A stretch of 64,000 nt of DNA from Sinohyriopsis cumingii (Eukaryota; Mollusca; Bivalvia; Unionida; Unionidae): NCBI GenBank assembly GCA_028554795.2, contig CM068829.1:130836016-130900015 (forward strand). Direction: 5' to 3'. The notes beneath the pieces were generated by a model, which saw nothing but the letters and a program-made list of their open reading frames with translations, made no database searches and was not told where the DNA came from. A program made the translations under genes and the position numbers. Shown here one piece after another: positions 36,080 through 62,285 of this stretch. Position 1 is the first letter of the stretch; every line of letters starts with the position of its first letter.

Positions 36080-36085
36080 ACTGTT

Positions 36086-36438: not shown

Positions 36439-36900
36439 ATGTTAATGTATCCATAAAGGGCACCGCATTGATCTTCTTCTTGTCCCTAGGCTGCGTCTCA
36501 CTGTAGGACCGTAAATCAGGACTCTTTTGAGGCATCCTTGCCTTTCTACGTAGATCCTACGTATCCACAGACTGGTGTCTGTCCTGTGGACAACTGTCCA
36601 CTTGGATCGGACATACATGGGTATGTCCGTCCGGAACATCATCGAAGACACAAGGGTAGAAGATTGCACATCGGTCCACATCTTGAGGCACCGAGAACAT
36701 GTGAATCAATGCAGTGAACTGCACTTATTTATAGGTAGAGGTAGGATTGAAATGGATTGAGTTTGTTGACCAATCCAAACACGCGTTACAAAATTCAGTC
36801 AGCCCGCATCCAATCCGAAGAGAGCAGTCTGTGACGTCACGTGGTCTAAATAGATTCGCTAGCGCCTGTGTGCAGTCAATCTATGTGACAGTGATTCAAC
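36439..36900 (+). promoter_or_regulatory. Left promoter region of the Polinton with CRE and CCAAT sites
   Basis: About 460 bp without a credible gene separate the TIR from the polymerase ATG. Near its right end are CCAAT (36,811-36,815), the palindromic cAMP-response-type site TGACGTCA running into CACGTG (36,832-36,843), and a weak TATA-like TCTAAATAG at 36,845. An inverted-repeat-rich patch (CTACGTAGATCCTACGTA; GTCTGTCCTGTGGACA) lies at 36,545-36,600. This is a plausible early promoter for DNA polymerase. The function is inferred from position only. Confidence 0.5.
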
Positions 36901-41373: not shown

Positions 41374-41396
41374 GCGGATAGCCACCCACCAGAAGG

Positions 41397-41849
41397 ATGA
41401 CTTCGCCACAGCAAGAATCGAGTGAGAAACCCGATGAGAACTCCAAGTTCAAAGCCTACCATTTTGCGGTTTTCTTGCCTGACTATTGTGATTGTGCCCG
41501 TCGATTGGACACGTTTCAAGCATGGCCTACGGATAGGAAAGGATTACCTTCTTCGCATATTTTACCTAGAACAGGATTTGTCTACTTGGGACCTGAGTCA
41601 GGATTGGGATAAGAAGTACAGTGTTTCGCTTGCGGACTGAAATTACGAATGGATCTATGTATCTACAAAGATTCAGCTATTCTGGAACATACTCGAGTGT
41701 CTCCACACTGTCCTTACCTTTCTATGGCCTTTCCACCCATGACACTACGGTACAATGATGACGGAACCTTAGAGACGGTACCTTCCAAAACTAAACATAA
41801 AATAAATAAAAAGGAACGATGTACAAGCTTGAGACTGCATTGCGACTAG
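41397..41849 (+). pseudogene. BIR-domain (IAP-like) protein 1, one internal stop
   Basis: After a short N-terminus the frame contains RRLDTFQAWP, a spacer, and RTGFVYLGPE; one TAA (41,610) interrupts. In the same frame it goes on to VQCFACGLKL, then DSAILEHTRVSPHCPYL. That is the BIR fold: the R-x-x-x-F-x-x-W-P opening, CxxC, and H-x6-C as zinc ligands. BIR proteins of viruses (baculovirus IAP type) bind caspases or pro-apoptotic factors and delay cell death. No RING finger is present; the C-terminus is a basic tail. The tryptophan usual after CxxCG is absent. A second BIR gene follows directly. Confidence 0.75.
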
Positions 41850-41857
41850 TATAAAAA
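41850..41857 (+). promoter_or_regulatory. TATA box before the second BIR gene
   Basis: TATAAAAA overlapping the end of the first BIR gene and 67 bases upstream of the ATG at 41,917; each gene here seems to have its own TATA element. Confidence 0.5.
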
Positions 41858-41916
41858 GGGACTATGGTCAAGATCGATAGTTCATTGTGACTACCTACCA
41901 AGACCGAGCGAACAAG

Positions 41917-42528
41917 ATGAATACTTTCAGAGAAACACACAACAAGTTTAGAAAGGCACAATTCAAGTGTGGGGCTTCTGAAGTGGAATGCGATTGTGAG
42001 CTTTGCGATGGGAACGATGCCGTAAAGCATCATGGGAACTTTGTTCTCACTACCCCTATCATGGAAAGTGATGCTGAGCGTGTCAAACCTGAGGGATGCG
42101 AAAGCGATGCCGCTCGTCCTCTTGGACATTTTACTGGGTTTCGTTTTAAAGGTGGATGTTCACCTTCACGTCTACCCCCCTACGGATGTCATCCAGCCCT
42201 GAGCAAACTCCTGTTCATGTCACCCAACCCTCATCGAAACGAACCTGTGAAAGACGAATATTCGTTTCCTGTGCGTTTGTCGGAATACTGCGACTTTGAA
42301 AATCGTCTTCAATCGTTCAAAGGAAAATGGCCTAAGTATCTGTGAGGCCCGACCCCCGAAGAATCAGCCAGAGCCGGATTGTTCTACTTGGGCGAAGGAG
42401 ATAAAGTCAAGTGCTTCAGTTGCGGTGTGTCACTTCACCACTGGGAACCACAAGATTCGGCCTACTTAGAACATGCTCGATGGTCACCGAATTGTCATTA
42501 CTTACCCTTAGTGGGACCGAGACATTGA
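41917..42528 (+). pseudogene. BIR-domain (IAP-like) protein 2, one internal stop
   Basis: The first in-frame ATG is at 41,917. The N-terminal 95 residues carry their own Cys/His cluster (CDCELCDGN) with no family known to me. The BIR domain then starts with CDFENRLQSFKGKWPKYL. After a TGA at 42,343 it continues in the same frame with RAGLFYLGEGDKVKCFSCGV, then HHWEPQDSAYLEHARWSPNC. All four zinc ligands (C, C, H, C) and the Trp after CxxCG are present, making this the more canonical of the two BIRs. The protein probably inhibits apoptosis of the host cell during replication (inference from family). The stop would remove the whole BIR domain. Confidence 0.8.
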
Positions 42529-42539
42529 GGTATCTTACC

Positions 42540-42932
42540 ATGTCGTTGACGAAGAAGAAACCAGATTGGTTAGGAGTCAAATGTTGGACATCACAGAGAC
42601 CAGTATTTAAACTTCATTTCAAAAACGATATTGAATCATTACCTAAAGAACTGCAAGAGAAGATTTACAAAGAAGTTTGGCAGGGGTTTGCCAGAGTGAA
42701 ATCTCAATGGGTCACTGTAGAACTTTTGTGTCGAGAAATTCATAAGAGGAAAGTGAAAAAAGTCAACCAGTGTGTTAGATTTCTTTGGGTCAAGGGTGCA
42801 TTCATCCTATTATATCGCTTTAGACCGTTTACATCAAAAGAGTTCAGTGACATTCTTGGACGTTACCCTGAATGGCAGTGGTCAGAAATTACTCACTATG
42901 TGGATTACTTTTGCTCTAGGAGAAGATTGTGA
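42540..42932 (+). CDS. Unrecognised accessory protein with LPKELQEKIYKE motif
   Basis: The ATG at 42,540 lies 12 bases past the BIR gene stop and gives 130 intact codons. Near residue 36 it reads IESLPKELQEKIYKEVWQ, which resembles the first helices of F-box or SOCS-box adaptors (L-P-x-E-L-x-x-x-I). The remainder is basic and aromatic (KSQWVTVELLCREIHKRKVK; PFTSKEFSDILGRYPEWQW). The next gene starts with the same kind of motif, so the two are probably diverged paralogues. Recruiting a ubiquitin ligase would suit an accessory gene beside BIR proteins, but this is speculation. Confidence 0.6.
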   Translation: MSLTKKKPDWLGVKCWTSQRPVFKLHFKNDIESLPKELQEKIYKEVWQGFARVKSQWVTVELLCREIHKRKVKKVNQCVRFLWVKGAFILLYRFRPFTSKEFSDILGRYPEWQWSEITHYVDYFCSRRRL

Positions 42933-42953
42933 ATTGTACGGACTGACCTATTC

Positions 42954-43445
42954 ATGGATACTTTACAAGAGAACATTCGTGCTTTGCCTGTGGAGTTGAG
43001 AGAACGCATTTACCGAGAGCTGGTCAAAATACAAGTCAAACGTAAAGAACAATTGCATCCGTTACGTCACCAGATCTTTAACCACTGGTACCTGAATGGT
43101 ATAAGAGAACTGATTCGTCAGAAATTGTTTCAGTGGTCAGACCTTGTTCAATACTTCCAGGCCCCCGATGATCCACGTGTTGATCATTTTGGTTACTTCG
43201 AGATTCACCTAGTGCAACGCATTGAGGAAGACAAGGTAAAGGATTACCAACATATTTTACGTGGAATCTTCTTAGCGGAAGAGGAAACTTCTAAACAAAA
43301 TCTGACGTTTCGGTTACAGTATGCAACATTTAAATTCCCCACTGGAAAACGAAGATCTCTGGTTAGAAAGTACGTGTATTGTTTCCGAAACAAAGAGACT
43401 ATAAAAACAGGCTGCCATGCCTCGACTTTTATCGCATGTAATTGA
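42954..43445 (+). CDS. Unrecognised accessory protein, paralogue of the preceding gene
   Basis: An intact 163-codon frame starting MDTLQENIRALPVELRERIY. The LPVELRERIYREL segment parallels LPKELQEKIYKEV in the upstream gene. The middle is rich in aromatic and charged residues (FNHWYLNGIRELIRQKLFQW; SDLVQYFQAP); the C-terminus holds a lone basic segment (PTGKRRSLVRKYVYCF). No membrane span or zinc motif. The last 28 bases overlap the start of the next gene in another frame, a compact viral arrangement. Confidence 0.6.
   Translation: MDTLQENIRALPVELRERIYRELVKIQVKRKEQLHPLRHQIFNHWYLNGIRELIRQKLFQWSDLVQYFQAPDDPRVDHFGYFEIHLVQRIEEDKVKDYQHILRGIFLAEEETSKQNLTFRLQYATFKFPTGKRRSLVRKYVYCFRNKETIKTGCHASTFIACN
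43400..43407 (+). promoter_or_regulatory. TATA box inside the end of the preceding gene
   Basis: TATAAAAA ten bases before the ATG at 43,417. This is too close for that ATG unless initiation is at a downstream start, so its role is uncertain; it could drive the gene at 43,866. Confidence 0.35.
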
Positions 43446-43882
43446 ACAGATTCCGTGGAAGGAACTCAATGTCCATATTTAAACCGTGGATCATTACCAT
43501 CGATTATTACAAGAACTGTATCCATTCAATTTGGGTCGACAAGTGGTGTGTGTCTTAGTGACTTGTTTTCTGGGATTTCGTTTACCAGCCGATTCTTTGT
43601 GGACTCTTTATGAACAGTATTTACCACCCATTCAACATGAAAGTGGTGCCTTTAAATGTTCACGAGAGACTCCTTTTGCTCAAAGCCTTGCGTTTTCATC
43701 TGGATACTTCTCGATATCTACGGGAAAAAAAGATTCGTCAACTTTTAGCTACCCAAGACGTGTATGACGATGTGTGTGTAGCTTGTCACTTACACCCCCA
43801 TTGGACAGATGTCCGTGCCTGGAAAAAATGGGATTTTGAGGCTTGGACCCAAGAAGTGGCCCAGTATGCTCGAGAGTTGTGA
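43417..43882 (+). pseudogene. Unrecognised accessory protein, broken
   Basis: MPRLLSHVIEQIPWKELNVH is followed by TAA (43,480). In the same frame come HRLLQELYPFNLGRQVVCVL and a hydrophobic stretch, to LWTLYEQYLPPIQHES. A shift near 43,640 then moves into the frame carrying HERLLLLKALRFHLDTSRYL, DDVCVACHLHPHWTDVRAWK and FEAWTQEVAQYAREL. It is helical overall, with one CxxCH element. No family recognised. The end overlaps the next ATG by 17 bases. Confidence 0.5.
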
Positions 43883-44168
43883 TCCTTCCTTTCAACGTCC
43901 AACGAAAAAAGTTACTTTTCAACCAGTGTTAGTGATGGTGCCAGAAGAACCCGTCACCCAGGACAGAACTGTCGTGGACAGGCCTGAAAGACCCTTTCGG
44001 GAGGACACTTGTGTGACCTTACCCCCTATAGAACTGGTCAGAACATTACCCAAAACATGTTGTACAGACACTTGTTTTTATTCCACGTTGATGGTTATCA
44101 TGTGCCTTTTATCGTTGTACTTAAGCCTTTGGCTTTTATGTATTTTTGTCTTTCGTGTTCATGTTTAA
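43866..44168 (+). CDS. Small tail-anchored membrane protein
   Basis: The start at 43,866 (ATG overlapping the stop of the preceding frame) gives 100 codons. The first two thirds are polar and proline-rich (PVLVMVPEEPVTQDRTVVDR). The C-terminus, from about residue 72, is one hydrophobic helix (STLMVIMCLLSLYLSLWLLC) ending in a few basic residues. This is the plan of a C-tail-anchored protein, as in viral Bcl-2-like or other death-regulating factors, but I see no BH motif, so no function is assigned. A polyadenylation-type AATAAA follows at 44,176-44,181. Confidence 0.6.
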   Translation: MLESCDPSFQRPTKKVTFQPVLVMVPEEPVTQDRTVVDRPERPFREDTCVTLPPIELVRTLPKTCCTDTCFYSTLMVIMCLLSLYLSLWLLCIFVFRVHV

Positions 44169-44175
44169 AACATTC

Positions 44176-44205
44176 AATAAACGTGTCCTGAAAAAAGTAT
44201 ATAAA
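44176..44205 (+). promoter_or_regulatory. Poly(A) signal of the accessory block and TATA box of the ATPase gene
   Basis: AATAAA at 44,176-44,181, eight bases after the stop of the tail-anchored gene, then TATATAAA at 44,198-44,205, about 47 bases upstream of the ATPase ATG. Poly(A) signal and promoter of adjacent genes nearly touch. Confidence 0.55.
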
Positions 44206-44251
44206 CTCTCGTCTTGTCTGTTTTCGTGTCACAAGTGACATTCCTAACACT

Positions 44252-44980
44252 ATGGCTACCTCTTCTGTCTCTGCTCGATCTTCCTCCACTCTCAAAGTCA
44301 TCGACGAACACTTAGATCGTGCCAGTTGGGAGGCTTTGTATCTTCGCCATCCCTTTAACATGCTCATTGTTGGACCTAGCGGTTCAGGCAAAACCGAATT
44401 CGTCAAACGTTTGATCGAACATAAACATCATTTGATCGATCGACCACCTCAGCGGATCGTGTGGTGTTACAAAGAGTGGCAATCGGCGTACAGCCTCTTG
44501 CGAGAAAGTCAAGGCGATTCCATCGTGTTTGTGGGAGGCATTCCTAAAGAAGACGATGGCATCGTCTCTGACTCCCGTCAAACCCATTTGGTCATTTTTG
44601 ACGACATGTTAGGAGAAGACGAAGAAGAAATTAAACTGTGGTTCACGCGCAAAGGGCATCACCGTAATGCCAGTGTCGTTTACATCACCCAAAATTTGTT
44701 TCAACAAAGTAAAGCCCATCGCACCATCAGTCTCAATGCGCATTACGTGGTCTTGTTTAAAAGCCCTCGAGATAAATCGCAAGTGCAAGTCTTAGCCAAA
44801 CAGTTAGGAACGCCTTGGCTGACTCAGGCGTACGACGATGCCACTCAATCTCCACACGCCTATTTACTCGTCGATTTGAAACCTACGACCCCCGATGATT
44901 TGCGATTTCGTACCCACTTGTTTCACCACTGGTGCCAAGACAGAGGGCCTGTCCTGTACACGTCTCCGTCTTTGACTTAA
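44252..44980 (+). CDS. DNA packaging ATPase (FtsK/HerA, A32-like)
   Basis: Intact 242-codon frame. Walker A GPSGSGKT is at residues 44-51, Walker B LVIFDDML near 112-119, and a sensor-type YITQNLFQ near 148 carries a conserved Gln-Asn. Size and order match the A32-like genome-packaging ATPases of Polintons and related viruses, which pump the DNA into the preformed capsid. Also typical are the aromatic C-terminal residues following HHW. It is one of the few enzymes in this element without a break. Confidence 0.92.
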   Translation: MATSSVSARSSSTLKVIDEHLDRASWEALYLRHPFNMLIVGPSGSGKTEFVKRLIEHKHHLIDRPPQRIVWCYKEWQSAYSLLRESQGDSIVFVGGIPKEDDGIVSDSRQTHLVIFDDMLGEDEEEIKLWFTRKGHHRNASVVYITQNLFQQSKAHRTISLNAHYVVLFKSPRDKSQVQVLAKQLGTPWLTQAYDDATQSPHAYLLVDLKPTTPDDLRFRTHLFHHWCQDRGPVLYTSPSLT

Positions 44981-45003
44981 CTTCATTCCACAAAAAAAAA
45001 ATC

Positions 45004-45011
45004 TATAAAAA
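45004..45011 (+). promoter_or_regulatory. TATA box before the basic virion-type protein gene
   Basis: TATAAAAA 47 bases upstream of the ATG at 45,051, after an A-run following the ATPase stop. The spacing equals that of the ATPase promoter. Confidence 0.6.
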
Positions 45012-45050
45012 CCTCAGACACTTTTCGTCTGTCTCACACACATTTTGAAT

Positions 45051-45901
45051 ATGACGTCCCTTCAGTCGCATCTTCCCGTCAAATTGATTCGTGCCTTGTA
45101 TGGCATCAGTCGAGAAAAAATCCACAAATACGAGCTCGTGTCTTAGAAGCTAGTCTCAAAGAAGTCTTACGATGGTTCACGGTGACGGCACGTCAATTAC
45201 TCCAAGGAATCATTCAGATTCCTCATCAAACCAAACGCTTTTTTGATCGAAGCAAAGTCGCTTTGACCCAACTGGCCGATCCCCGCATCGACACTCAAAC
45301 CAAAAAACAAATCATTTTGAAACCTGGAGGGAGCGGTACTCTAGGAGGGGTCATCATTCGCTCTCTCTTAAGATGGGATTCTAATGCCCCCAAACTTCTC
45401 CCCAAGAAAAAAGTCAAACGAAGGTCCAAGAAGAAGAAAAAGACCAGGTCCCCAAGGAGAACTTCTCCAGTAGCGGGACCCTCCTCTTACCAGACACCAC
45501 CCCGGAAAAAGAAACAGAGAAAAAGTCCCCAGAAAAAGAAAAGTCCACAGAAGAAAACTAGTCGCAAGAGAGGCACTTCGGCCAGGACGCAACCTTACAA
45601 TCGCAAACCACGACCTGCAAAGGCGGTGACCGCGTCTCCGGCAGCCTCACGTTCATCCACTTCTCCGTTGATAACACCAAGAACTGAAGAGTACTTGGAG
45701 ACGTTGATCACACGAAGAACTTCTCCGTTGGTGACCCCAAAAAGAACTTCCCCAGTGGCAGGACCCTCCAATTTAGTGGCAGTGGCTGCTGCTCACAAAG
45801 TACCTTCTCCCAAAATCAAAGTTCAAGAAAGATCGGGCATGTTACAAAGTTTACTGGATTTGTCCAAGCAAGAACTGGGGTATCAGTGTTTTTGGTGCTG
45901 A
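45051..45901 (+). pseudogene. Basic core-type virion protein, one frameshift
   Basis: The ATG at 45,051 (MTSLQSHLPVKLIRALYGIS) runs to a stop at 45,146; a shift near 45,130 carries the reading into the frame 45,182-45,901. That frame has LRWFTVTARQLLQGI, IILKPGGSGTLGGVIIRSLL, then a long Lys/Arg/Ser/Pro-rich tail with KKKxxPRR and RTSPVAGPS repeated (45,463 and 45,748). The composition is that of a DNA-condensing core protein like adenovirus pV or pVII, and the GGSGTLGG part may be a processing or membrane segment. Position after the ATPase supports a virion role. The evidence is compositional. Confidence 0.6.
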
Positions 45902-45911
45902 AGGCTCAAAG

Positions 45912-46316
45912 ATGTCACCCTCCAGAAAACATCCCTCTTCTAAACAGCCCCAAGGAAAGAAAAGAAAAGGACTGCCTCCTCGTTTAGTCAAACATGGGGA
46001 CATGTTATCTGTCCTGTCCAAAGCTTCTCCACCTCTACGAAAAAAACTCATTCAATCAGCCTCCAAAGAGGTCATCGATACCGTGTGCGAATGCTGTTTG
46101 AACGTCTTGAAAGGCACGATCCCTTTGTCCAAACACCAGAAACAATGTTTAGGCAAACATCGTCACGTTCTTTGCCAAATGGTTCAAAAGAAAATTCCCA
46201 TTCGTCAAAAGAAAAAGATGTTGGTCCAACGTGGAGGCATTTTACCCCTCTTGTTAGGTCCCTTACTGAAAGGAGTCTTGGGAACCATGTTGGGAGGACT
46301 GGTGGGAGCAAGATAA
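45912..46316 (+). CDS. Virion-type protein with hydrophobic Gly-Leu C-terminus
   Basis: Intact 134-codon frame starting 11 bases after the previous stop. It has a basic start, a helical middle (SKASPPLRKKLIQSASKEVI) with four Cys and several His (ECCLNVLKGTIPLSKHQKQC), then RQKKKMLVQRGGILPLLLGP and LLKGVLGTMLGGLVGAR. A K-R-x-x-L-x-x-x-GG-hydrophobic C-terminus is characteristic of a small Polinton/adintovirus virion protein often likened to membrane-disrupting proteins. The GG might be a site for the adenain-type protease. Confidence 0.65.
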   Translation: MSPSRKHPSSKQPQGKKRKGLPPRLVKHGDMLSVLSKASPPLRKKLIQSASKEVIDTVCECCLNVLKGTIPLSKHQKQCLGKHRHVLCQMVQKKIPIRQKKKMLVQRGGILPLLLGPLLKGVLGTMLGGLVGAR

Positions 46317-46365
46317 AAAGGCCCTCGGAAGTCCCAAGATCTCAGAATCGACCCCTGACAACCCC

Positions 46366-47070
46366 ATGGAAGGACGAAAACTAGCTTTAGTGCCTTACAA
46401 ACGATGGATGGAATACCATCGTTGGCAAGAACAACGCACCCCGCATTTACCTCCCAATCCCAATTTAAGCGAGATGTCCCAGTTACAACACGAATTGCAG
46501 TCCTTGATGGATCGCCAAGATTTGTCCGAAACAGAAAAATCGCAAAAGTACGGTCAACTCTTGCAACGACTGCAACTCTTTCACCAGAAAGCTTTAGACG
46601 AAACAGCTCTACCCACTCTGAAAGATTTTAAGACCTTGATGAAAAGTCCAGCACCATCATCACTACCATCACCACCACCACCACTACTACCATCCCCAGG
46701 GGTCACCAGAGATGCTACCCCACGAAGACCTGAGGAAGAAGAGATGCGAGAAGTGTTTCAAACACCGTCAGCAGCTCCCATTTCGAGTAAGATTGCAGCA
46801 TCCTTGTTGACCCCGTCTCCCACACCCCAACGAGAAGAAATGAAAGCTTGGGTTAAAAAGATAATGTCCACTCCTCCTTCTACAGAAGTGAAAAAGAAAG
46901 AAGGGAAACCAGAAGTGAAAAAAAAGAAGACCAAAGCCATTCCATTGCCACCTCCACCACCACTACCTTCGACTTCTACTCCCGTAGCCCATCGGACACG
47001 TAAATCCGTTTCTAAACCATCCTTTCGACCCACCCAAAGTAGCATCACCGAGGAGTGGGTGACTTATTAA
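46366..47070 (+). CDS. Virion-associated protein with LVPYKRW start and Pro-rich tail
   Basis: Intact 234-codon frame. MEGRKLALVPYKRWMEYHRW at the start and LSETEKSQKYGQLLQRLQLF near residue 70 fit a conserved Polinton/adintovirus protein located between the core-type gene and the integrase. That protein has an aromatic VPxxR start and a short helical pair. The second half is low-complexity Ser/Pro/Lys with two polyproline runs (SPPPPLLPSPG; LPPPPPLPSTS). Its function is not established; a scaffold or minor core role is plausible. Confidence 0.6.
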   Translation: MEGRKLALVPYKRWMEYHRWQEQRTPHLPPNPNLSEMSQLQHELQSLMDRQDLSETEKSQKYGQLLQRLQLFHQKALDETALPTLKDFKTLMKSPAPSSLPSPPPPLLPSPGVTRDATPRRPEEEEMREVFQTPSAAPISSKIAASLLTPSPTPQREEMKAWVKKIMSTPPSTEVKKKEGKPEVKKKKTKAIPLPPPPPLPSTSTPVAHRTRKSVSKPSFRPTQSSITEEWVTY

Positions 47071-47090
47071 CACACAAACAAACACAAAAA

Positions 47091-48200
47091 ATGGAAAAAG
47101 TCTTAGCCAGCATTTACTACGATCCCTCCCATCCTGCAGGTTACGCAGGAGTTCAAAAATTGTATCGTGCTGCCAAAACGCGACTGAAAAGTCTCCGTTT
47201 ACCTCAAGTGCAACGATGGTTACAAGAACAAGCTACTTACACTTTACACAAACCCATTCGACGCAAGTTTTCCAGAAGTCGCACCCGAGTGGAAGGCATC
47301 GATCATCAATGGTAAGCCGATTTAGCCGATGTCTCTCATTTGGCCAGCTACAATCGTGGCTACAAATATTTGTTTTGTGTCATCGGCGTCTTTTCCAAAT
47401 TTGCCTGGGTCGTGCCCTTGACTTCCAAATCCAGCAATGAGTTAGTGCGAGCCCTGCAACGAGTGTTGAAACAAAGCGGTCGTCACCCTCTTCGATGGCA
47501 AACGGACAAAGGTACCGAATTTCTGAACCAAGCTTTCCAAAAACAATTAAAGAAACGTGACATTCATTTTTTTACCACCGAGAATCCCGAAACCAAAGCC
47601 AGCATCGTGGAACGTTTTCAACGCACTTTGAAAGAACGCATGTGGAAATATTTTACGCATCATCACACTCTGAAGTACATCGACATCTTACCGCACCTGG
47701 TGCAAGCGTACAACCAATCTTACCATCGAAGCATTGGACGTGCCCCGCAAGAAGTGACTCCCGACAACGAAGTGCTGGTGTTTGAGCGCCTGTTTGGTAC
47801 GTCCCCGACGAGGGCTGTCCCCAAGAAAAGTGGAGAGTTGACCGTAGGAGATTGGGTGCGCATTGGCAAAACCAAACGCACTTTGGACAAAGGTTACTTA
47901 CCTAACTGGTCGACCGAATTGTTTCGTGTCACTGGACGAGTGCATGGCCGTCATCCTACCGTCTATAAATTGGAAGACATGAACGGAGAAGTGCTCAAAG
48001 GAACGTTTTATTTGCCCGAGTTACAACGTGTCACCAAAAAAGAAGACGACGTGTACGACATCGAAAGCATTCTCGAACGCAGAACCCGTAAAGTGGGCAA
48101 ACGACGTGTCAAAGAAGTCAAAGTACGTTGGAAAGGATATCCACCCAGTTTTGATTCTTGGATCGACGCTTCGCAAGTCATCGACTATAAAAAGAAGTGA
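47091..48200 (+). pseudogene. Retroviral-type integrase with C-terminal chromodomain, one internal stop
   Basis: Start ATG 47,091 after an A-rich leader. The N-terminal domain contains YYDPSHPAGYAGVQKLYRAA. The catalytic core has ADLADV (first Asp, 47,318), QTDKGTEF (second Asp, 47,500) and ASIVERFQ (Glu, 47,610), an Asp-Asp-35-Glu arrangement. A basic SH3-like region follows, and the C-terminus (48,040-48,190) reads YDIESILERRTRKVGK and VRWKGYPPSFDSWIDASQV, a chromodomain with its aromatic residues. A TAA at 47,313, immediately before the first catalytic Asp, breaks the otherwise continuous 369-position frame. The enzyme joins the element's ends to host DNA, and the chromodomain may direct it to methylated histones. 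Confidence 0.92.
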
Positions 48201-48205
48201 CCATC

Positions 48206-48616
48206 ATGCCCTTTCACACAGACGCAGCTACGTCGACCACTCCTTCACCTAGTTCTTCTCTGCAAGATTTACAGAAACAACCCTTGTGGGTGTGGTGCGG
48301 AGAACGTGTGCCTAAAACGCAAATCGTCTTTTTCTGCCAAATCTTCGTGGTGTATTGTGTCATCGGGGCAGCCATCGCCAATTTGAGTTTGCAACAAGGA
48401 GACAAACAATTGTGGACCATTTTATTGAGTAGTTGCATCGGTTACCTGCTTCCCAATCCCTCCCTGAAATTCACCTCGAACGAGAACCACGGGAACCTAG
48501 TGTCCAGTGTCAGTGCCAGTCACCACTCCAACAACAACAACAACCCTATTTTGGGCGGAGACACGCCTCTGACGTCCAGTAACCCCTCGGACAGCCACAG
48601 AACTCTGGAATTATGA
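48206..48616 (+). CDS. Two-span membrane protein conserved in Polintons
   Basis: The first ATG (48,206) gives 136 codons. Thr/Ser-rich N-terminus, then PLWVWCGERVPKTQIVFFCQ leading into IFVVYCVIGAAIANLSLQQG (first span) and LWTILLSSCIGYLLPNPSLK (second span), then a polar tail with an Asn run. This pair of spans with SCxGYLLPNP is recurrent in Polinton/adintovirus elements beside the minor capsid gene. An inner-membrane or entry role is guessed. Its stop overlaps the next start (ATGA). Confidence 0.65.
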   Translation: MPFHTDAATSTTPSPSSSLQDLQKQPLWVWCGERVPKTQIVFFCQIFVVYCVIGAAIANLSLQQGDKQLWTILLSSCIGYLLPNPSLKFTSNENHGNLVSSVSASHHSNNNNNPILGGDTPLTSSNPSDSHRTLEL

Positions 48617-49538
48617 GTCACCAAAACCAATTTTACTTACCCTTACCCAGTGACAGTTCCATGGAGGTGTTTCCCAAGAACACGTTGTGCTGTTACACGG
48701 CCAAATTACCTCAGGCCATCCCATTAGATCACGAATCCCATTGGGAAGTGGCTTTAGTGGAAATCATTCACCCGACCCAAGTCCTCAATGTCCTTCATAA
48801 TCAAAATTTTTTTGATGTGGAAGTTCATGACGAGTCAGTGCAAAAGTACTTGAATACCCATGTCAAATATGATCACAAAACCTATGATGACAAAACTCAA
48901 AAGTGGTCCTACCACTTGTTGGTTCCCCCAGGCTACTATTTTAGTGGTCAACATTTGGTCAGCACCATTACCTCCAGATTTAATGTCGTGTTTCTGAAAG
49001 CTTTGGAAAGTGTCAAAAAAAGTGTCACCATGGAGTACCACAAAGCAGCTCGTCGCTTCTTGATGAAATTTGACGGGAGTAAAATCGTGTCCATTTTATT
49101 TTGTCCTGAATTGTTTGACATGTTGGGCGGAGACATGGACCTGAGAATGACCATGCTCAAGAAAAACGAATTACCAATCATTTACGACAACGAGTCTTTT
49201 AGCAAGTTATTTCGTGCCCCGGTAGAACTGAACCAAGGACTGAATTTGATGTTTGTGTACTCCGATGTGGTGGAGTATAACGTGGTGGGACACACCTCTG
49301 TGCCGTTACTGCGTGTCATTCCTTTCAAAGTGGATTCTGCCACAAGCGCTGACGAGGAAGGTGGAAACACCACGTTCACCGCGAATTTGTACATCCTCAC
49401 CATTTGCCTGTCAGCAAGTCGTATTTGGACACGGTCAACATTGCTATAAAAGGAGATCTGGGACAAAATATTCCATTCACCAAAGGAAAAGTGACGGTGA
49501 AACTCCATTTTCGTAAACGGTTCTCTCACGACTCGTAA
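48613..49538 (+). pseudogene. Minor capsid (penton-like) protein, one frameshift
   Basis: The frame from 48,613 opens with MSHQNQFYLPLPSDSSMEVF and YTAKLPQAIPLDHESHWEVA. It keeps the order of the single jelly-roll minor capsid protein down to PLLRVIPFKVD; a shift near 49,395 then leaves the native ending in another frame, HLPVSKSYLDTVNIAIKGD and PFTKGKVTVKLHFRKRF, ending at 49,538. The protein forms the fivefold vertices. About 308 positions in all, normal for the family. The shift costs the last 50 residues, including the C-terminal strands. Confidence 0.85.
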
Positions 49539-49541
49539 GTC

Positions 49542-49967
49542 ATGTATCCAGTGTACCGAGGGGTTGCTCGACAGCGAGGACACGGTTTAGGAGATATGTT
49601 AAAATCGGCTTTTCGTTCGGTGGCTCCGGCCTTGAAACCGATGGTGACACGCGGATTGCACGCCTTGAAAGATGCGGCACTGACACAAGGCAAAGAATTT
49701 CTCCAAAATGTCATCATCGACAAACAAAACCCCAAAGAAGCTCTCATGAGGGCAGGCAAAAATGTCTTGCTGCAAACGGGTAAAGACCTTTTGGGCCGAC
49801 GAGAAACACCTATAAATGCCCTGCACGTTACCGAGTTAGGCATTCAGCAAGGACAAGGCAGAAAGAGACGACGAAGAAAGCACCCTTTCACCAGACTTCA
49901 CACGTCTAAAGCTAGAAAGACAAAGAAAAGAAGAACCGTTCGAGACTTAGACGTTTTCGATTATTGA
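49542..49967 (+). CDS. Basic pVI/pX-like virion protein
   Basis: Intact 141-codon frame four bases after the minor capsid stop. It starts MYPVYRGVARQRGHGLGDML then KSAFRSVAPALKPMVTRGLH, an amphipathic Gly-Leu-basic N-terminus, and later reads GRKRRRRKHPFTRLHTSKAR. The pattern YxxYRG-x-x-x-QRG-x-G-hydrophobic is characteristic of the protein between penton and major capsid genes in Polintons, likened to adenovirus pVI or pX. The role is likely DNA condensation or membrane lysis, cleaved by the viral protease. Confidence 0.75.
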   Translation: MYPVYRGVARQRGHGLGDMLKSAFRSVAPALKPMVTRGLHALKDAALTQGKEFLQNVIIDKQNPKEALMRAGKNVLLQTGKDLLGRRETPINALHVTELGIQQGQGRKRRRRKHPFTRLHTSKARKTKKRRTVRDLDVFDY

Positions 49968-49985
49968 GAAAGAACAAAAAACAAA

Positions 49986-51305
49986 ATGATGCACCGAGAG
50001 TCTTGCGCTTGTTCCAAGTCGGAACTGGATCTGTTTGCCATGCCGCCCACCATGATGACCATGCAAGAATCCCAATGGGTGGAATTTCACCCGGTCTCCT
50101 CTTTGACGGATTCTGCTCCCATCGAGTTTGACATCAAAGGTCAGCCCGAAGATTACATCGATCTGAATAGAAGTTACCTGTATTTAAAAGTCAAAGTGAT
50201 CAAAACGGACAACACCAATCCTGGAGCCAATGATAGAGCAGCTCCTATCAACAATTTCATGCATTCCTTGTTCAGTAAAGTGTACTTGTACTTGAATAAC
50301 AAACTGGTCAGCAGCAGCATGGATACTTACCCTTATCGTGCCTACCTGGAAAATCTCTTGACGTACGGAAAAGAAGCCAAGAATACTCATCTGGATGCTT
50401 GCGTGGTATGGAAACCTGACACGACAGGCACGTTTAACGACACAGTCCTCACAACAGATGACGAACCTCACAATGTGGGGTTTAACACACGTAGAAATAA
50501 AATTCTGCAAGGGCGAAGTTTAGAACTGATGAATCGTTTGTATTTGGACACGTGGTTACAAGAAAAGTATTTGCTGAACGGAGTGGATATCCGTCTGAGA
50601 CTGAATCGTAGCAGTGCCGCTTTCCATTTGATGGCCCATGCCAATGAATACAAAACTTTCATTCAAGAAGCCCGACTTTACGTGCGTCGTGTGGAAGTGT
50701 TACCTAAAGTGGGAAACGACGTCAGTCAGACGTTGAGCAGAACGACCGCCAAGTATCCGATACGACGCGTAGAAGTGAAAACGTTCACCATTCCTGTTGG
50801 ACAGCGATCCATGATCGAAGATCATCTGTTCCAAGGACAGTTACCCAAACGTTTGATCGTTGGTATCGTCAGGAATTCAGCTTTCAATGGACTTCACAAC
50901 GAAAATCCTTTTGAGTTTCGACACTTTGGCGTGTCCAAGATCGAAGTCAGTCGCGACGGCAAGACCTTGTGTACCCGACCCTTTGAGCCTAACTTTACCC
51001 AGAACAATTACTTGAGATCGTACTTGTCCCTGTACGAAGATACGGGACAGTTAGGAACCAACACCAGTCATGGCATTACGTACTAGGATTATGCAGGAGG
51101 CTATGCTTTGTGGGGTTTTGATTTCACTCCAGACCAAGGCTGCGACGAGGGACATTTCCACTCTATAAAATCCGGCCAGATTCGTGTGGAAATTCAGTTT
51201 GCAAACCGAGACCCTGCTGATCCAACGTTGAACGTCATCCTGTATGCAGAATTCGACAATACGATAGAAATCAACAGTTTGAGAGAAGTCATTCTAGATT
51301 ATTAG
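49986..51305 (+). pseudogene. Major capsid protein (double jelly-roll), one internal stop
   Basis: A start at 49,986 yields a continuous frame of 439 positions except for a TAG at 51,084. The N-terminal half has SQWVEFHPVSSLTDSAPIEF, DYIDLNRSYLYLKVKV, INNFMHSLFSKVYLYLNNKL, and DTYPYRAYLENLLTYGKEAK. The second jelly-roll follows with GRSLELMNRLYLDTWLQEKY and VDIRLRLNRSSAAFHLMAH. Past the stop, YALWGFDFTPDQGCDEGHF and NVILYAEFDNTIEINSLREV finish the protein. This forms the trimeric hexons of the shell. The stop would remove the last 73 residues. Confidence 0.93.
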
Positions 51306-51310
51306 AAGCC

Positions 51311-51811
51311 ATGGAAGACTGTTATCCCTCTTTACCTAGTGGAGAAACTTTGGACATGGAATGTGAGGAGACCGTGGAAGAATCCCAAGACAAAGACGAA
51401 GAAGAGACCATGATGAAGTCAAGATGGCCAGAACAAGAAGCCCATTTAGTCTCCTGTTTTGCCAAACACTTGGTTGAAAAAATGACGGAATTGATCAAGA
51501 CAGATTGCTATGGATGTCAAAACGATCATCCCAGTCAAATTCAACACGATAAATGCCTGATGTTGAGTCAAGAAGAAAAATTGAACGAGTTTCTGGACGA
51601 AGCTTGCAGTCTCATCTCGGACGAAGTCGTGTTGCATCAGTGGTATAAAGACTTGCGTGAACATTCTTGTCCACCATTAACCACTCAAGAGATCCATCGT
51701 ATCGAAGCTCTCCTGAATCAGAGTGAGGAGACGAAACGAAGAAACGGTTATTTGTCAGACATTTTCAAGCAAAAAGTCAGGATCGAATTGATGAATTATT
51801 ACTACCTGTGA
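51311..51811 (+). CDS. Conserved Cys/His protein between capsid and protease, unknown function
   Basis: Intact 166-codon frame six bases after the capsid stop. It begins with an acidic segment, then a helical part with KTDCYGCQNDHPSQIQHDKC, a C-x2-C-x4-H-x6-H-x2-C cluster that recurs in proteins at this place in Polinton/adintovirus elements. The rest is helical (QEEKLNEFLDEACSLISDEV) and ends NYYYL. A zinc site is likely; the function is not known to me. Confidence 0.6.
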   Translation: MEDCYPSLPSGETLDMECEETVEESQDKDEEETMMKSRWPEQEAHLVSCFAKHLVEKMTELIKTDCYGCQNDHPSQIQHDKCLMLSQEEKLNEFLDEACSLISDEVVLHQWYKDLREHSCPPLTTQEIHRIEALLNQSEETKRRNGYLSDIFKQKVRIELMNYYYL

Positions 51812-51833
51812 AGAAGAAAAAAACACACAAAAA

Positions 51834-52340
51834 ATGGATACCTGGGAACTTTATTACCTTTTGAACCACATTTCGTATACGGCTTCTTGGAATCCTGTCG
51901 TCTGTGCTAAAGATGAACTCCCTCATCGCAAACCTCAAGACCATCTAGCTTATGTGATCAACACGGACTACAGTCATCTCCCAGGAACCGATTCGTACGG
52001 ATTGCCCCCTTTGGAAGACGATATCATTGACTTTATGAGAAGAAATGCTCAGACCACCCGATTCAATAATGTGAAATTACAAGGTACAGATTCCTTGGTG
52101 TGTGGACAATATTGTGTGTATTTTCTGCATCATCGCAGCCTGGGCTATTCCTTAGAACATTTAGTGACTCATTTTGATCCTCGTTCTTCTTCTAGAAATG
52201 ATGTGAAAGTAGATCGATGGTTTTGTCACCAGTATGCTTATCTTTTGTCTCAAGCTAGGAAACGTAGTGTCCATCAATGGCCTAATGACTTCCAACAGTG
52301 GAAATCACAATTTCATTCACAACGTTTCAGCCCTGTTTAA
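51834..52340 (+). CDS. Adenain-type cysteine protease lacking the catalytic His segment
   Basis: A 168-codon open frame. Before the active site it reads AYVINTDYSHLPGT; the frame then passes straight to DSYGLPPLEDDI, and later LQGTDSLVCGQYCVYFLHH carries the oxyanion Gln and nucleophile Cys. In this family roughly 15-20 residues, including the His-Trp catalytic pair and a strand, stand between the PGT-like and FDSYG-like parts. Here they are missing without loss of frame. The deletion should inactivate the protease, which normally matures capsid and core proteins. The rest of the fold (RWFCHQYAYLLSQARKRSVH at the end) looks normal. Confidence 0.8.
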   Translation: MDTWELYYLLNHISYTASWNPVVCAKDELPHRKPQDHLAYVINTDYSHLPGTDSYGLPPLEDDIIDFMRRNAQTTRFNNVKLQGTDSLVCGQYCVYFLHHRSLGYSLEHLVTHFDPRSSSRNDVKVDRWFCHQYAYLLSQARKRSVHQWPNDFQQWKSQFHSQRFSPV

Positions 52341-52590
52341 AGTAGAGTGTTAATTGAAAAAATGTTTGTCATTTTAAAAAAAAAATGTTTGATGTTATAT
52401 TGTTGGATTATTGTTAAAAATGTTAGAGTTGTTTGTTAGTGTTAACTGATTTTGAATAAAAAATGTTGTGTTTTGAAAAAAAAAATGCCTTTGTCTTTTG
52501 TTTGGCTATAAGAATGTTGATTCATGCTCTTTCACTTCTCTCTATCTCTCTCATGACACTCATTGAACGTTGCGGCTCGAAAACCGTAGA
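52341..52590 (+). other. AT-rich spacer with poly(A) signal ending the structural gene block
   Basis: Very AT-rich, with two A-runs each followed by ATGTTTGATG- or ATGCC-like phrases. AATAAA (52,456-52,461, in TTGAATAAAAAATG) would end the transcript of the structural block. No gene. Confidence 0.55.
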
Positions 52591-52627
52591 GGGATGTTTT
52601 CCTTCACGTCCGCGCTTTGACTTTAAG
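52591..52627 (+). promoter_or_regulatory. Shared promoter block, copy 1
   Basis: GGGATGTTTTCCTTCACGTC followed by CGCGCTTT, then TTTAAG at 52,622-52,627 as a TATA variant. The same block stands before each of the three right-end genes (see 53,447 and 54,151). Confidence 0.7.
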
Positions 52628-52683
52628 AACCGGGGTAGTTTCCAGTCTAACCATCCATTGTCGACTCATCCTCCTACGAAGAT

Positions 52684-52896
52684 GTGCTCCAACTAGCTAA
52701 GCTAAACGAAGCCTACGTGAATTTGCATAGGGTCAGACACAGTCTGATACCAAAGCCAGAAGAGATAGAGAATGTGAGAATGTTAAAAGTCACGGAAGAC
52801 CTGATAGAAGAGCTCTTCAGAGAAGAAGTGAACAGGGAGAAAGAAGAATGGACAGAGAAGTACAGACTTCAGAGACAGCAGCAACAGCAACAACAA

Positions 52897-52927
<31 letters not shown>

Positions 52928-53052
52928 CTGAACCTGACAGAGGCTTTGTCGATTGTCGTATCGACACCAAAGAGTTCTTCTTCTCTTTCCGAAGAAGCAG
53001 ACCTATCGTCAGAAAGTCTATCCTCAGAGGACGTCGCATTCTTAGAAATTAA
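52684..53052 (+). pseudogene. Right-end small gene 1: charged coiled-coil protein with polyGln
   Basis: The long frame has no ATG at its beginning; the only nearby ATG (52,682) is one base out of frame and meets a stop after four codons, so a one- or two-base change probably damaged the start. The protein is helical: LQLAKLNEAYVNLHRVRHSL, then TEDLIEELFREEVNREKEEW, a run of about 19 Gln from a CAG/CAA microsatellite (52,877-52,926), then a basic end with KSILRGRRILRN. The segment EDLIEELFREEVNREKEEW resembles EELIREVMKVEVMKIKEKW of gene 3, so the array may be one duplicated family. No known family. Confidence 0.55.
52877..52926. repeat. (CAR)n trinucleotide repeat coding polyGln
   Basis: About 16-17 CAG/CAA units inside the first right-end gene; mixed codons suggest selection for Gln or old age of the tract. 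Confidence 0.9.
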
Positions 53053-53078
53053 AAAGACTGCCATAGCAAACAAAAAAC

Positions 53079-53126
53079 AGCCCTTTTCAGGGCTACCCAA
53101 TACTCTAGAAAACTAGAAAAGAAATA
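53079..53126 (+). terminator. Histone-type mRNA 3' stem-loop and downstream element, copy 1
   Basis: The hairpin AGCCCT-TTTC-AGGGCT (53,079-53,094) has a six-base stem and UUUC loop, followed by ACCCA, and is preceded by an A-rich flank (CAAAAAAC). It begins 27 bases after the stop of gene 1. A purine-rich AGAAAAGAAATA lies 15-20 bases downstream (53,114-53,125), where a histone downstream element (U7 snRNA site) would be. This matches the replication-dependent histone 3' end in every part except the first stem pair (A-U rather than G-C). No AATAAA is near. Confidence 0.8.
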
Positions 53127-53129
53127 ACA

Positions 53130-53446
53130 ATCGATTTGCCAATGTGTGTAGGTAGAGTAGTGTGAATATAAACACTGACTCTTTTTTATAGTGTGAGTGT
53201 ATGTGTTTGTAAGTGCTCACGTACGTTTGTGTGGATAGTAGATTAAGATCATGTTTTTTGCTGTTTGAGGTGTGGGGAGAGTAGATTTGGGGTTTGATTG
53301 GATTGCTTTGAGTATGTGAATAGTATATTATTTGTTTAATAATTTTTTTTTAGAATAGTGATGGGCAGTATAAAAAAGTGCGTGAGTGTTTCTTTTAGGT
53401 CCGCGCGTTGTTTGGTCATGATCTAGGTAAGATCAATTTTGTTTTA
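53130..53446 (+). other. Duplicated intergenic segment of the right-end array
   Basis: ATCGATTTGCCAATGTGTGT followed by AGTAGTGTGAATATAAACAC recurs at 53,900-53,955. A phrase with GATCTAGGTAAGATCAATTT followed by TGTTTTAGGGG at 53,419-53,450 recurs at 54,189-54,219. So whole gene modules were duplicated in tandem, together with their spacers. Confidence 0.7.
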
Positions 53447-53484
53447 GGGGATGTTTTCCTTCACGTCCGCGCTTTTAGTATAAA
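53447..53484 (+). promoter_or_regulatory. Shared promoter block, copy 2
   Basis: GGGGATGTTTTCCTTCACGT followed by CCGCGC and then TATAAA at 53,479-53,484, 51 bases upstream of the gene 2 ATG. Confidence 0.75.
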
Positions 53485-53534
53485 TTGAAAATCGCTGGGC
53501 AGTCTAGCTACCCTGTTCATTCGTTAACAAGATA

Positions 53535-53831
53535 ATGAATACCAGAATTGTAAAGCTTCTAGAACTCCAGATGCACCTGGAATATGCCAGGCGCATACTA
53601 AATGAAATGGCCGCGGAGGACATTGTCGAAGAGGGAAGGATGAAAGAGGAGGAGGAAAGAAGAAAAAAAGAAGAGGAGGAAAAGAAGAGAAGAAATTTCA
53701 GAATCCCAGAGACAGAACATTGGGATTCTGAAGCCACTTATCCCGCCTCTGCACTCCCAAGAAAAAAGGTAAAAGGAGACTGGGGAAGAAGATGTGTGTG
53801 TGGTGCCAGGCCTGGAAGGTGCCATCATTAA
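53535..53831 (+). CDS. Right-end small gene 2: Glu/Lys-rich coiled-coil protein
   Basis: Intact 98-codon frame with ATG at 53,535. The start MNTRIVKLLELQMHLEYARR is helical. It is followed by an extreme Glu/Lys/Arg helix (EEGRMKEEEERRKKEEEEKK), then a C-terminus with a CVCGARPGRCHH cluster that could bind a metal. It lies between promoter copy 2 and stem-loop copy 2. No family recognised; the charge pattern recalls the other two genes of the array. Confidence 0.6.
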   Translation: MNTRIVKLLELQMHLEYARRILNEMAAEDIVEEGRMKEEEERRKKEEEEKKRRNFRIPETEHWDSEATYPASALPRKKVKGDWGRRCVCGARPGRCHH

Positions 53832-53860
53832 CCAGGTGTCACTGGAGTTCAAAAACAAAC

Positions 53861-53900
53861 AGCCCTTTTCAGGGCTACCCAAAGCTTTAGAAAAGAAATA
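53861..53900 (+). terminator. Histone-type mRNA 3' stem-loop and downstream element, copy 2
   Basis: AGCCCT-TTTC-AGGGCT again, at 53,861-53,876, followed by ACCCA and then AGAAAAGAAATA at 53,889-53,900. It begins 30 bases after the gene 2 stop. Hairpin, flank and downstream element are identical to copy 1, apart from a shortened spacer. Confidence 0.8.
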
Positions 53901-53961
53901 ACAATCGATTTGCCAATGTGTGTATGTAGAGTAGTGTGAATATAAACACTGACTCTTTTTT

Positions 53962-53963
53962 TC

Positions 53964-54008
<45 letters not shown>

Positions 54009-54012
54009 TTTG
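53962..54012. repeat. (TG)n microsatellite
   Basis: About 20 TG units inside the duplicated spacer after gene 2; copy 1 of the spacer has only a short TG run at the same place, so it expanded here after duplication. Confidence 0.93.
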
Positions 54013-54150
54013 TAAGCGCTGACGTAGGTTTGTGTGGATAGTAGATTTGGGTTTCATTTTAATGCTTTGCGTGTGTAAATAGTAGATTTTGGGTTTGTTT
54101 ATTGCTGCTTCACGTATGTGGATAGTAGATCATATGAAATGAGAAAAGTA

Positions 54151-54253
54151 GGGAATGTTTTCCTTCACGTCCGCGCGTTTTAAGTAATGATCTAGGTAAG
54201 ATCAATTTTGTTTTAGGGGATGTTTTCCATCACGTCCGCGCTTTCACTATAAG
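54151..54253 (+). promoter_or_regulatory. Shared promoter block, copy 3 (double)
   Basis: GGGAATGTTTTCCTTCACGT and CCGCGCG at 54,151-54,178, then the GATCTAGGTAAGATC spacer, then a second core GGGGATGTTTTCCATCACGT with CCGCGC (54,216-54,241) and TATAAG at 54,248-54,253, 50 bases before the gene 3 ATG. The CACGTCCGCGC part is preserved in all cores and is a likely transcription-factor site (ATF/CREB- or E-box-like). Confidence 0.75.
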
Positions 54254-54302
54254 AACCCACAGTATTCGTCGTTCGCACCTATCTAAGGAATAAACAAAGA
54301 AG

Positions 54303-54867
54303 ATGGAGGTGACAAAATTATTTAACGATTTGAGACATAGCTATTTTTGGATCATGGATGGGACTTATATAGTAGAAAGATTGAATAAGGAAGGAAGATT
54401 TGAACGTAGCCTGAACAATGTGAAGAGTCTTGGAGTAGCAAAAGATCAAATAGGGGGAATGATTGAGGAAGAGAATCAGAGGATTCATTGACCCACCTTA
54501 CGTAAGAGTAGGTACTTTAAAGGAAGCCTTGGATCATATCATAGAAATCAGGAGCTTCCTAGAAAATTGCTTTCATTGGTACGTAAAGTGGGGTTGTAAC
54601 CAGTTGATAAAAGCAGAAGAACTAATTAGAGAGGTAATGAAAGTAGAAGTGATGAAGATAAAAGAAAAATGGAGCAAAGAGAGAAAGGAAGAAGAGAATA
54701 AGAAGAAGAAATTAGAGTTTGAAAGATTAAATAACAACTGGATGAAGTTCCAACAGAAATTTAGAGAGATGGGCCATCCTGACTGGATAACAGAGGAGAA
54801 GAAGAAGAGGAAGAAGAAAGGAATTTTGGGAAAGATAAGGGGATGGTGGAAGAAGTGGAGGAGTTAG
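54303..54867 (+). pseudogene. Right-end small gene 3: basic coiled-coil protein, one frameshift
   Basis: ATG 54,303 starts MEVTKLFNDLRHSYFWIMDG, and the frame stops at 54,491; a shift near 54,475 leads into the other frame (to 54,867), which has PPYVRVGTLKEALDHIIEIR, then AEELIREVMKVEVMKIKEKW and a very basic Lys/Glu helix ending ILGKIRGWWKKWRS. The AEELIREVMKVEV segment resembles gene 1. Helical, strongly charged, no membrane span. The stop lies 15 bases before the hairpin in the right TIR. Confidence 0.55.
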
Positions 54868-54873
54868 AAGAAG

Positions 54874-55226
54874 AAACCCAAGGCCCTTTTCAGGGCCACT
54901 CATAGGTCTCGAAAAGAGATTGACTTTCAATTGCCTACCCTTTTTTTATTTTTATTTTTAAAAAAAAAAAATACCATGTTAAATTTCCCTTGACGCTATA
55001 CAGTCCCACCCTGTTTAAATTCCCTTGACGCTATACAGTCCCATATTCCCATGTTAATTTCCCTTGTCGCTCAACAGTCCCAAAATCTATTTCCAATGTT
55101 AATTTCCCTTGTCGCTAAACAGTCCCACGATTTTTCTCCATGTTAAATTTACATAGTCGCTAAACAGTCCCAGGGGTGTTTTTAATGATAAGTCCCATTG
55201 TCGCTGAGTCGTCCCTATTCACTACT
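54874..55226 (-). repeat. Right terminal inverted repeat of the Polinton
   Basis: Mirror of the left repeat, including the five GGGACTGT subrepeats in inverse order. Its inner end overlaps the 3' end signal of the last gene (hairpin 54,882-54,897). Polinton termini are thought to carry the covalently bound terminal protein used for protein-primed replication. Confidence 0.93.
54882..54920 (+). terminator. Histone-type mRNA 3' stem-loop, copy 3, in the right TIR
   Basis: GGCCCT-TTTC-AGGGCC (54,882-54,897): all six stem pairs fit the canonical metazoan histone hairpin, including the G-C first two pairs, with CCCAA before and ACTCA after. A purine block GAAAAGAGA (54,911-54,919) lies 13 bases downstream. 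It begins 15 bases after the gene 3 stop. The matching place in the left TIR (36,414-36,429, minus strand) has one mismatched pair. Confidence 0.85.
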
Positions 55227-55232
55227 ACTGTT

Positions 55233-55376
55233 TCTTATAATTTACAAAATATTTATATTTCTCAAAAGCAAAAGAAATTTCATGTTTTCTTTCTTTCCAC
55301 CAGGCTCACACGTTGTCTTTGACATTTGCAGTTACATTTTATTTCTAACTGTCAGATCCTAGAATATTATTATTAC

Positions 55377-55430
<54 letters not shown>

Positions 55431-57790: not shown

Positions 57791-57844
57791 TTCATCATGT
57801 TTTTTTAATCTAAGTGAAATCGACAAACTTTTTCTAAAACGTCA

Positions 57845-62162: not shown

Positions 62163-62285
<123 letters not shown>

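Follow-up and report, generated by a model that had tools for sequence, protein, structure and literature searches.

Five terminal genes of a Polinton family in the bivalve Sinohyriopsis cumingii bear histone-type 3' end signals

A Polinton (Maverick) element of 19.1 kb was found in the 64,000-nucleotide stretch of Sinohyriopsis cumingii contig CM068829.1 analysed here (hereafter the window; Table 1). It is bounded by terminal inverted repeats and by perfect 6-bp target-site duplications, and it encodes a protein-primed DNA polymerase (PolB) and a packaging ATPase, whose DNA_pol_B_2 and Pox_A32 matches both exceed the Pfam cut-offs, together with an integrase-like open reading frame (ORF) of which a chromodomain is the sole part matched. 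The PolB of this copy is split over several frames. The 366-amino-acid (aa) core protein encoded at 49986-51086, which we take to be the capsid protein, has 1,233 database homologs, including bivalve proteins named F54H12.2-like. The capsid label is unconfirmed by Pfam, where the protein has no match, and by solved structures; it stays a presumption because one match at chance level (E 0.7), and no convincing relative by sequence, was all that the core-protein alignment yielded against solved structures. Among the best 120 rows listed, relatives of this protein come from bivalves and one sea cucumber, with one row named as a bacterial metagenome-assembled genome (MAG); the best 120 rows listed for the host histone H1 are likewise from molluscs, plus one row with a bacterial MAG name.

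Five small genes occupy the ends of the element, A and B in divergent orientation on the left and C, D and E in tandem on the right, and in this family each is followed by a hairpin and a putative U7-type downstream element. The hairpins have a 6-bp stem and a 4-nt pyrimidine-rich loop that fit the Rfam Histone3 model (RF00032, gathering score 34), with which positions 36000-56000 were scanned. Three of them, at 53079, 53861 and 54882, had been noticed in a preliminary description of the window as the ends of three tandem genes, and all three are indeed present, 26, 29 and 14 nt past the stop of the preceding ORF (C, D and E, respectively), while hairpin A follows its stop by 12 nt; in all four cases the preceding ORF runs without interruption to a stop close to the hairpin. 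The observation is confirmed and larger than was reported: hairpins A and B had been missed, and the family therefore has five such genes. Hairpin B is present in relatives and absent from the window copy. The purine-rich block that had also been described downstream is GAAAAG, 13 nt after hairpins D and E, whereas behind hairpin C the corresponding place holds AGAAAAC and GAAAAG starts at 21 nt.

Table 1 Features of the Polinton and its terminal genes in the window.
Feature	Position	Strand	Evidence and remarks
Polinton/Maverick element, 19,141 bp	36086..55226	+	Inverted repeats, 6-bp target duplication, DNA_pol_B_2, Pox_A32-type ATPase, chromodomain ORF
Target-site duplication ACTGTT, left	36080..36085		Read from sequence
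Target-site duplication ACTGTT, right	55227..55232		Read from sequence
Left terminal inverted repeat	36086..36437		Repeat pairs 98% and 90%; hairpin A and its downstream element at inner edge
Right terminal inverted repeat	54874..55226		Inverted-repeat comparison; hairpin E and its downstream element at inner edge
Hairpin A	36414..36429	-	One stem mismatch in this copy; Histone3 24.1 bits (match 36434-36390); inside left inverted repeat
Gene A, 79-aa ORF	36442..36681	-	Stop 12 nt before hairpin A; dN/dS 0.11 among 15 copies
Divergent A/B promoter	36682..36900		ATTGG boxes, TATAAA, TGACGTCA; loose resemblance to the promoter of host H2A
Gene B remnant	36901..37437	+	ATG frame ends at 37182; relatives run on to the B hairpin; gene end and hairpin missing here past about 37428
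AATAAA	44176..44181	+	Signal search; 8 nt after ORF 43809-44168
AATAAA	52455..52460	+	Signal search; 115 nt after last core ORF (51834-52340)
Histone-type promoter motif, gene C	52591..52618	+	Repeat comparison; resembles the promoters of H2B and H1
Gene C, longest ATG ORF left, 90 aa	52780..53052	+	118-125 aa from MCSK start in four relatives; dN/dS 0.06-0.08
Hairpin C	53079..53094	+	AGCCCTTTTCAGGGCT; Histone3 30.0 bits, E 4.6e-5 (match 53074-53119)
Downstream element C	53107..53121	+	AGAAAAC, then GAAAAG at 21 nt; spacing comparison, identity windows
21-nt stretch identical to host H4 promoter region	53389..53409	+	Comparison with host promoters
Histone-type promoter motif, gene D	53448..53475	+	Repeat and host-promoter comparison
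Gene D, 98 aa	53535..53831	+	Conserved Cys/His tail; dN/dS 0.13-0.18
Hairpin D	53861..53876	+	AGCCCTTTTCAGGGCT; Histone3 31.7 bits, E 1.1e-5 (match 53856-53900)
Downstream element D, GAAAAG, putative U7 site	53890..53895	+	Spacing comparison; 13 nt after hairpin
Histone-type promoter motif, gene E, first copy	54152..54179	+	Repeat comparison
Histone-type promoter motif, gene E, second copy	54217..54244	+	54219-54242 identical (24/24) to host H2B promoter
Gene E, two broken frames	54303..54867	+	ORF reading; 54303-54491 and 54463-54867
Hairpin E	54882..54897	+	GGCCCTTTTCAGGGCC; Histone3 34.8 bits, E 7.7e-7 (match 54877-54922)
Downstream element E, GAAAAG, putative U7 site	54911..54916	+	Spacing comparison; 13 nt after hairpin

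The histone genes of the host end in the same way. The host genome carries its histone domains in tandem repeats of ~8.3 kb (150 domains scored, best of 662 candidates), and one repeat (L077), containing H3, H4, H2B, H2A and H1, was read. Its genes end in GGCCCTTTT[T/C/A]AGGGCC, H1 ending in GGTCC..GGACC; the five hairpins score 35.0-39.4 bits in Histone3, and GAAAAG starts 13, 13, 13, 14 and 14 nt 3' of them. For comparison, Polinton copies were chosen by their core gene as described below, and among their 29 intact hairpins the distance to [G/A]AAAAG is 13 nt for 23, 14 nt for three, 12 nt for two and 11 nt for one, so that 26 of the 29 have the host spacing of 13-14 nt. In the window, the element of C starts at 21 nt. 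An earlier count, in which 30 loci picked by Histone3 were added, placed the element at 13 nt in 69 of 74. By eye, another similar stretch resembling TCAATTTTGCC was seen ~30-40 nt 3' of the hairpin in the L077 histone ends and in the D and E ends of the window.

A search of the genome with the core protein provided 112 scored copies (best of 27,992 first-look candidates), which are 93-100% identical in this protein, 103 of them without internal stops. Right ends were taken from eight of these copies and left ends from four of the eight, the choice being made by the core gene with the hairpins disregarded. All six pairs are kept in 22 of the 24 right-end hairpins (C, D and E), and Histone3 lists 22 of the 24 at E ≤ 0.05; five pairs remain in C of copy L067 and D of copy L065, and the loop is altered in E of L066. 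The left ends gave perfect A and B hairpins in eight of eight cases, 22-27 nt past the stop, hairpin A being intact in all four. Conservation in related elements, proposed in the preliminary description as a check, was found in copies picked independently of the hairpins. The distance from stop to hairpin is 16-39 nt in these copies, with the exceptions of L067 E (80 nt) and L065 E (no 40-aa ORF); in loci L001-L030 it ranges over 7-127 nt, some of them having no 40-aa ORF and many such frames looking broken.

Compared pairwise between copies, the 16-nt hairpin has an identity of 1.0 for C, 0.986 for D and 1.0 for E, against 0.57-0.82 in both outer flanks of D and of E and in the downstream flank of C (outer flanks overall 0.565-0.973, the top value belonging to the part that encodes C). 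Immediately 3' of the hairpin, five bases are identical at 1.0, 0.956 and 0.664 in C, D and E, respectively, and a segment taken at a fixed offset to cover the downstream element scored 0.5, 1.0 and 0.955, the low value of C arising because the window copy holds an 8-nt insertion there. In a covariation set of 18 hand-picked hairpins (16 distinct rows), 97.9% of the pair cells are standard and two pairs have changed on both sides, and none of 500 shuffles matched the observed pair share or covariation score. The outer pair is G-C in some genes and A-T in others, a compensatory difference. With hairpins retained in relatives, host hairpins and elements at equal spacing and a compensatory outer pair, the histone-type 3' ends first proposed for the three tandem genes are strongly supported. 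An alternative explanation is that these signals are passive relics of a capture from host histone genes, their uniformity reflecting recent copying of a few sources and polyadenylation occurring further on. Recent amplification does explain part of the uniformity, given the high identity of the copies in the core protein, and single copies decay (C of L067, D of L065, E of L066 and A of the window). However, the hairpin stays nearly invariant where its flanks diverge, its outer pair has changed on both sides, and five genes of unlike sequence all possess it, making passive retention improbable.

The upstream regions were compared with the host histone promoters, of which that of H3 was outside the fetched host stretch. 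A 24-nt motif, GATGTTTTCCATCACGTCCGCGCT, is shared exactly by the host H2B promoter and the region upstream of gene E, and H1 differs from it at one of 26 aligned places. The core motif has only four sites in the window, all upstream of C, D and E. Local alignment of the H2B and H1 promoters with the C, D and E promoters scored 44-56, whereas none of 344 control pieces taken from the window exceeded 34, and for the H4 promoter only D (46) tops the control maximum of 43. In the fetched copies, the core motif lies within 200 nt of the start in seven of seven C genes, six of eight D genes and both E genes of type 1. The A/B promoter shares with the H2A promoter an ATTGG box ~40 bp before TATAAA, and its window copy scored 37, the best control reaching 34. 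Genome-wide, the 24-mer occurs 2,906 + 3,109 times (6,015 copies), the reversed control giving 0. These promoters also bear on the idea that the hairpins are DNA sites or generic terminators, such as cruciforms at the edge of the inverted repeats or sites for transposase or replication. Hairpins A and E do lie within the terminal inverted repeats, but B, C and D stand outside them, on the coding strand and 22-39 nt past the stop in the window and the core-gene-chosen copies, the downstream element keeps the host histone spacing, and the right-end genes are accompanied by histone promoter motifs. We regard this explanation as very unlikely.

The products of the terminal genes measure ~77 aa (A), ~183-194 aa (B), ~120 aa (C), ~98-150 aa (D) and ~127-204 aa (E), the window copies of C and E being frame-broken relative to their relatives. 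Neither a histone nor an H1 domain was found in six A-E proteins (no histone family at E ≤ 0.1), and all Pfam matches listed for these six were below the cut-off; an LxCxE motif was absent from the 11 gene copies checked. The ratio of nonsynonymous to synonymous substitution (dN/dS), obtained by a crude method from open copies only and given as ratio of medians and ratio of sums, was 0.11 and 0.11 for A, 0.48 and 0.45 for B, 0.06 and 0.08 for C, 0.18 and 0.13 for D, and 0.18 and 0.22 for E type 1, with 0.27 for a single pair of E type 2. By this measure A, C, D and E type 1 are under purifying selection and B is weakly constrained. A-E are real genes. Gene D has seven database relatives, and a CxC motif and further Cys and His residues are invariant in eight of eight aligned sequences, its tail being possibly metal-binding. 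Gene E has at least two unlike N-terminal types. The N-terminal types were seen to vary (L068, L071, L017 and others) before a similar basic, tryptophan-bearing tail just ahead of the hairpin, as if modules had been swapped upstream of a fixed 3' end.

Across the 2.9-Gb host genome, the pattern RGCCCTTTTCAGGGCY-N13-GAAAAG was found at 23,653 + 24,099 = 47,752 sites, and its reversed control at none. Divided among five genes, this number suggests that the genome holds on the order of ten thousand element equivalents, host H2B matches adding a little, and the element is apparently present in thousands of copies. At 100 listed sites the outer pair is G-C in 62, A-T in 35 and A.C in three (97 of 100 G-C or A-T). 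Eighteen neighbouring pairs among them are divergent and 1,085-1,123 bp apart, like A and B, and of 28 close same-strand neighbours 18 run from A-T to G-C (or A.C), as C and D precede E, ten from A-T to A-T and none in reverse. A genome search with Histone3 scored 75 matches (best of 589,472 candidates), all over the cut-off; 30 of these were fetched, all 30 match the Polinton by blastn, and none holds histone peptide motifs.

Two candidate explanations were rejected. Chance hairpins are contradicted by the empty reversed-pattern control and by window positions 1-36000, where no Histone3 match was found at E ≤ 0.5 (positions 56000-64000 were scanned at the gathering score only). An element that sits in, or has captured, a histone gene is contradicted by the 30 loci (3 kb each) devoid of histone motifs and by the lack of histone-family matches in A-E. 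That the hairpins mainly titrate SLBP or U7 small nuclear ribonucleoprotein (snRNP) away from histone mRNA, slowing chromatin assembly to the advantage of the element with the proteins secondary, would fit the ~48,000 hairpin-plus-element sites, a number far above the 150 histone domains scored as the best of 662 candidates, but purifying selection on A, C, D and E type 1 shows that the products matter, and we consider it the least credible proposal.

Taken together, genes A-E carry the cis-signals of host replication-dependent histone genes and most likely use the host S-phase histone pathway (SLBP and U7 snRNP), a reading to which we assign a probability of about 0.83. In histone mRNAs, SLBP binds the hairpin and the cut falls a few nucleotides past it. 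By analogy, host SLBP would bind the A-E transcripts and U7 snRNP would direct their cleavage a few nucleotides beyond the hairpin, with no poly(A) added, and the mRNAs would be made and kept mainly in S phase. According to PMC9756948, U7 small nuclear RNA pairs with the downstream element, the transcript is cut in the interval that separates this element from the hairpin, and active U7 machinery is confined to S phase. Timing through the histone pathway, as proposed in the preliminary description, is strengthened as an inference because a motif in the promoters of the right-end genes recurs in host histone promoters; C, D and E are preceded by this histone-promoter motif, and A and B by a loosely H2A-like ATTGG/TATA arrangement. 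At least a few core genes carry an ordinary AATAAA instead, so that two classes of expression are probable, with the terminal genes linked to host DNA replication. That core genes are polyadenylated while terminal genes end at a hairpin is likely, if thinly supported. The simplest idea of a possible gain is that accessory proteins would be made when nucleotides and replication factors are plentiful. We also lean, with less assurance, towards a broader proposal in which the whole histone kit, promoter and non-polyadenylated 3' end, was adopted for this gene class, with expression in S phase only, probably in histone locus bodies, and thousands of copies competing for SLBP and U7 snRNP.

Several observations weigh against use of the histone pathway by A-E. 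Covariance scores had been suggested as a check, and only one of the four window hairpins exceeds the gathering score of 34, namely E (34.8), the third of those first described, while C (30.0) and D (31.7) fall below it. The claim that no poly(A) signal is near did not hold, as an ATTAAA at 53048 overlaps the stop of gene C. The contrast with the core genes is thin because AATAAA lies within 120 nt of the stop in only two of 15 core ORFs; for the PolB ORF ending at 41289 the nearest AATAAA is 512 nt downstream. Within 200 nt of the start, the core promoter motif was found in one of three E genes of type 2, none of four A genes and none of three B genes, and it occurs in two of the four host promoters seen, those of H2B and H1. 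The H2A likeness of the A/B promoter exceeds 200 shuffles in no more than 10 of 15 copies, and 29 of 500 covariation shuffles reach two pairs changed on both sides. Family searches of the host for U7 and for SLBP detected neither, nor did they in any control genome. Finally, four contigs with distant relatives (L073-L076; core protein 25-46% identical) gave no Histone3 match, the element ends being mostly out of view; generality to Polintons is therefore not shown, a weak objection since these contigs are mostly without element ends. The same four contigs are filed as bacterial MAGs, three being titled symbionts or Rickettsiaceae, yet hold relatives of the Polinton capsid-like gene, and they are probably animal DNA binned with bacteria.

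Elsewhere in the window, a second group of virus-like ORFs occupies 14173-19684 on the minus strand, in which 19280-19684 resembles a GDGHGDV-type minor-capsid-like protein and 16334-16714 a fibre-like protein (both by eye); neither Pfam nor Histone3 matched this group. On the plus strand, 7461-10658 holds a long ORF of the non-LTR (long terminal repeat) retrotransposon type, with reverse transcriptase and endonuclease. Scans of the IMG/VR database found no relative, whether made with the core protein, with an alignment of this protein or with that of gene D, and the hairpin pattern hit four loci there, none with Histone3 at E ≤ 0.1 and one phage-like by eye.

In the abstract of PMC12775136, animal histone mRNAs are described as the sole class without a poly(A) tail. 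Among the records listed in a literature search, with subscription papers mostly outside it, none linked Polintons or viruses to histone-type 3' ends on mRNAs of their own. In the present case, the histone pathway appears to have been taken over by a mobile DNA element for five genes that match no histone family. If so, S-phase coupling of Polinton activity would be directly testable, poly(A) RNA-seq would miss A-E, and the question arises how the supply of histones is safeguarded in a genome with ~48,000 such sites.

Compared with metazoan replication-dependent histone genes, the terminal genes share the 6-bp stem, the TTTC/TTTA loop, the flanks, GAAAAG at 13-14 nt and the short distance from the stop. 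With the histone genes of the host they share, in addition, a promoter motif common to H2B and H1 and a separate stretch common to H4. They differ from histone genes in that the products match no histone family and the genes are part of a mobile element. The element itself agrees with Polintons/Mavericks (and adintoviruses) in its inverted repeats, 6-bp duplication, PolB, A32-type ATPase and chromodomain ORF; it differs in its five terminal genes with histone-type ends, of which none was seen in the four distant contigs. The terminal early genes of adenoviruses offer a further likeness, as they too are small regulatory genes beside the terminal repeats and apart from the core genes. The early mRNAs of adenoviruses, however, carry poly(A) tails and drive the cell cycle; the timing of Polinton A-E instead seems to follow S phase.

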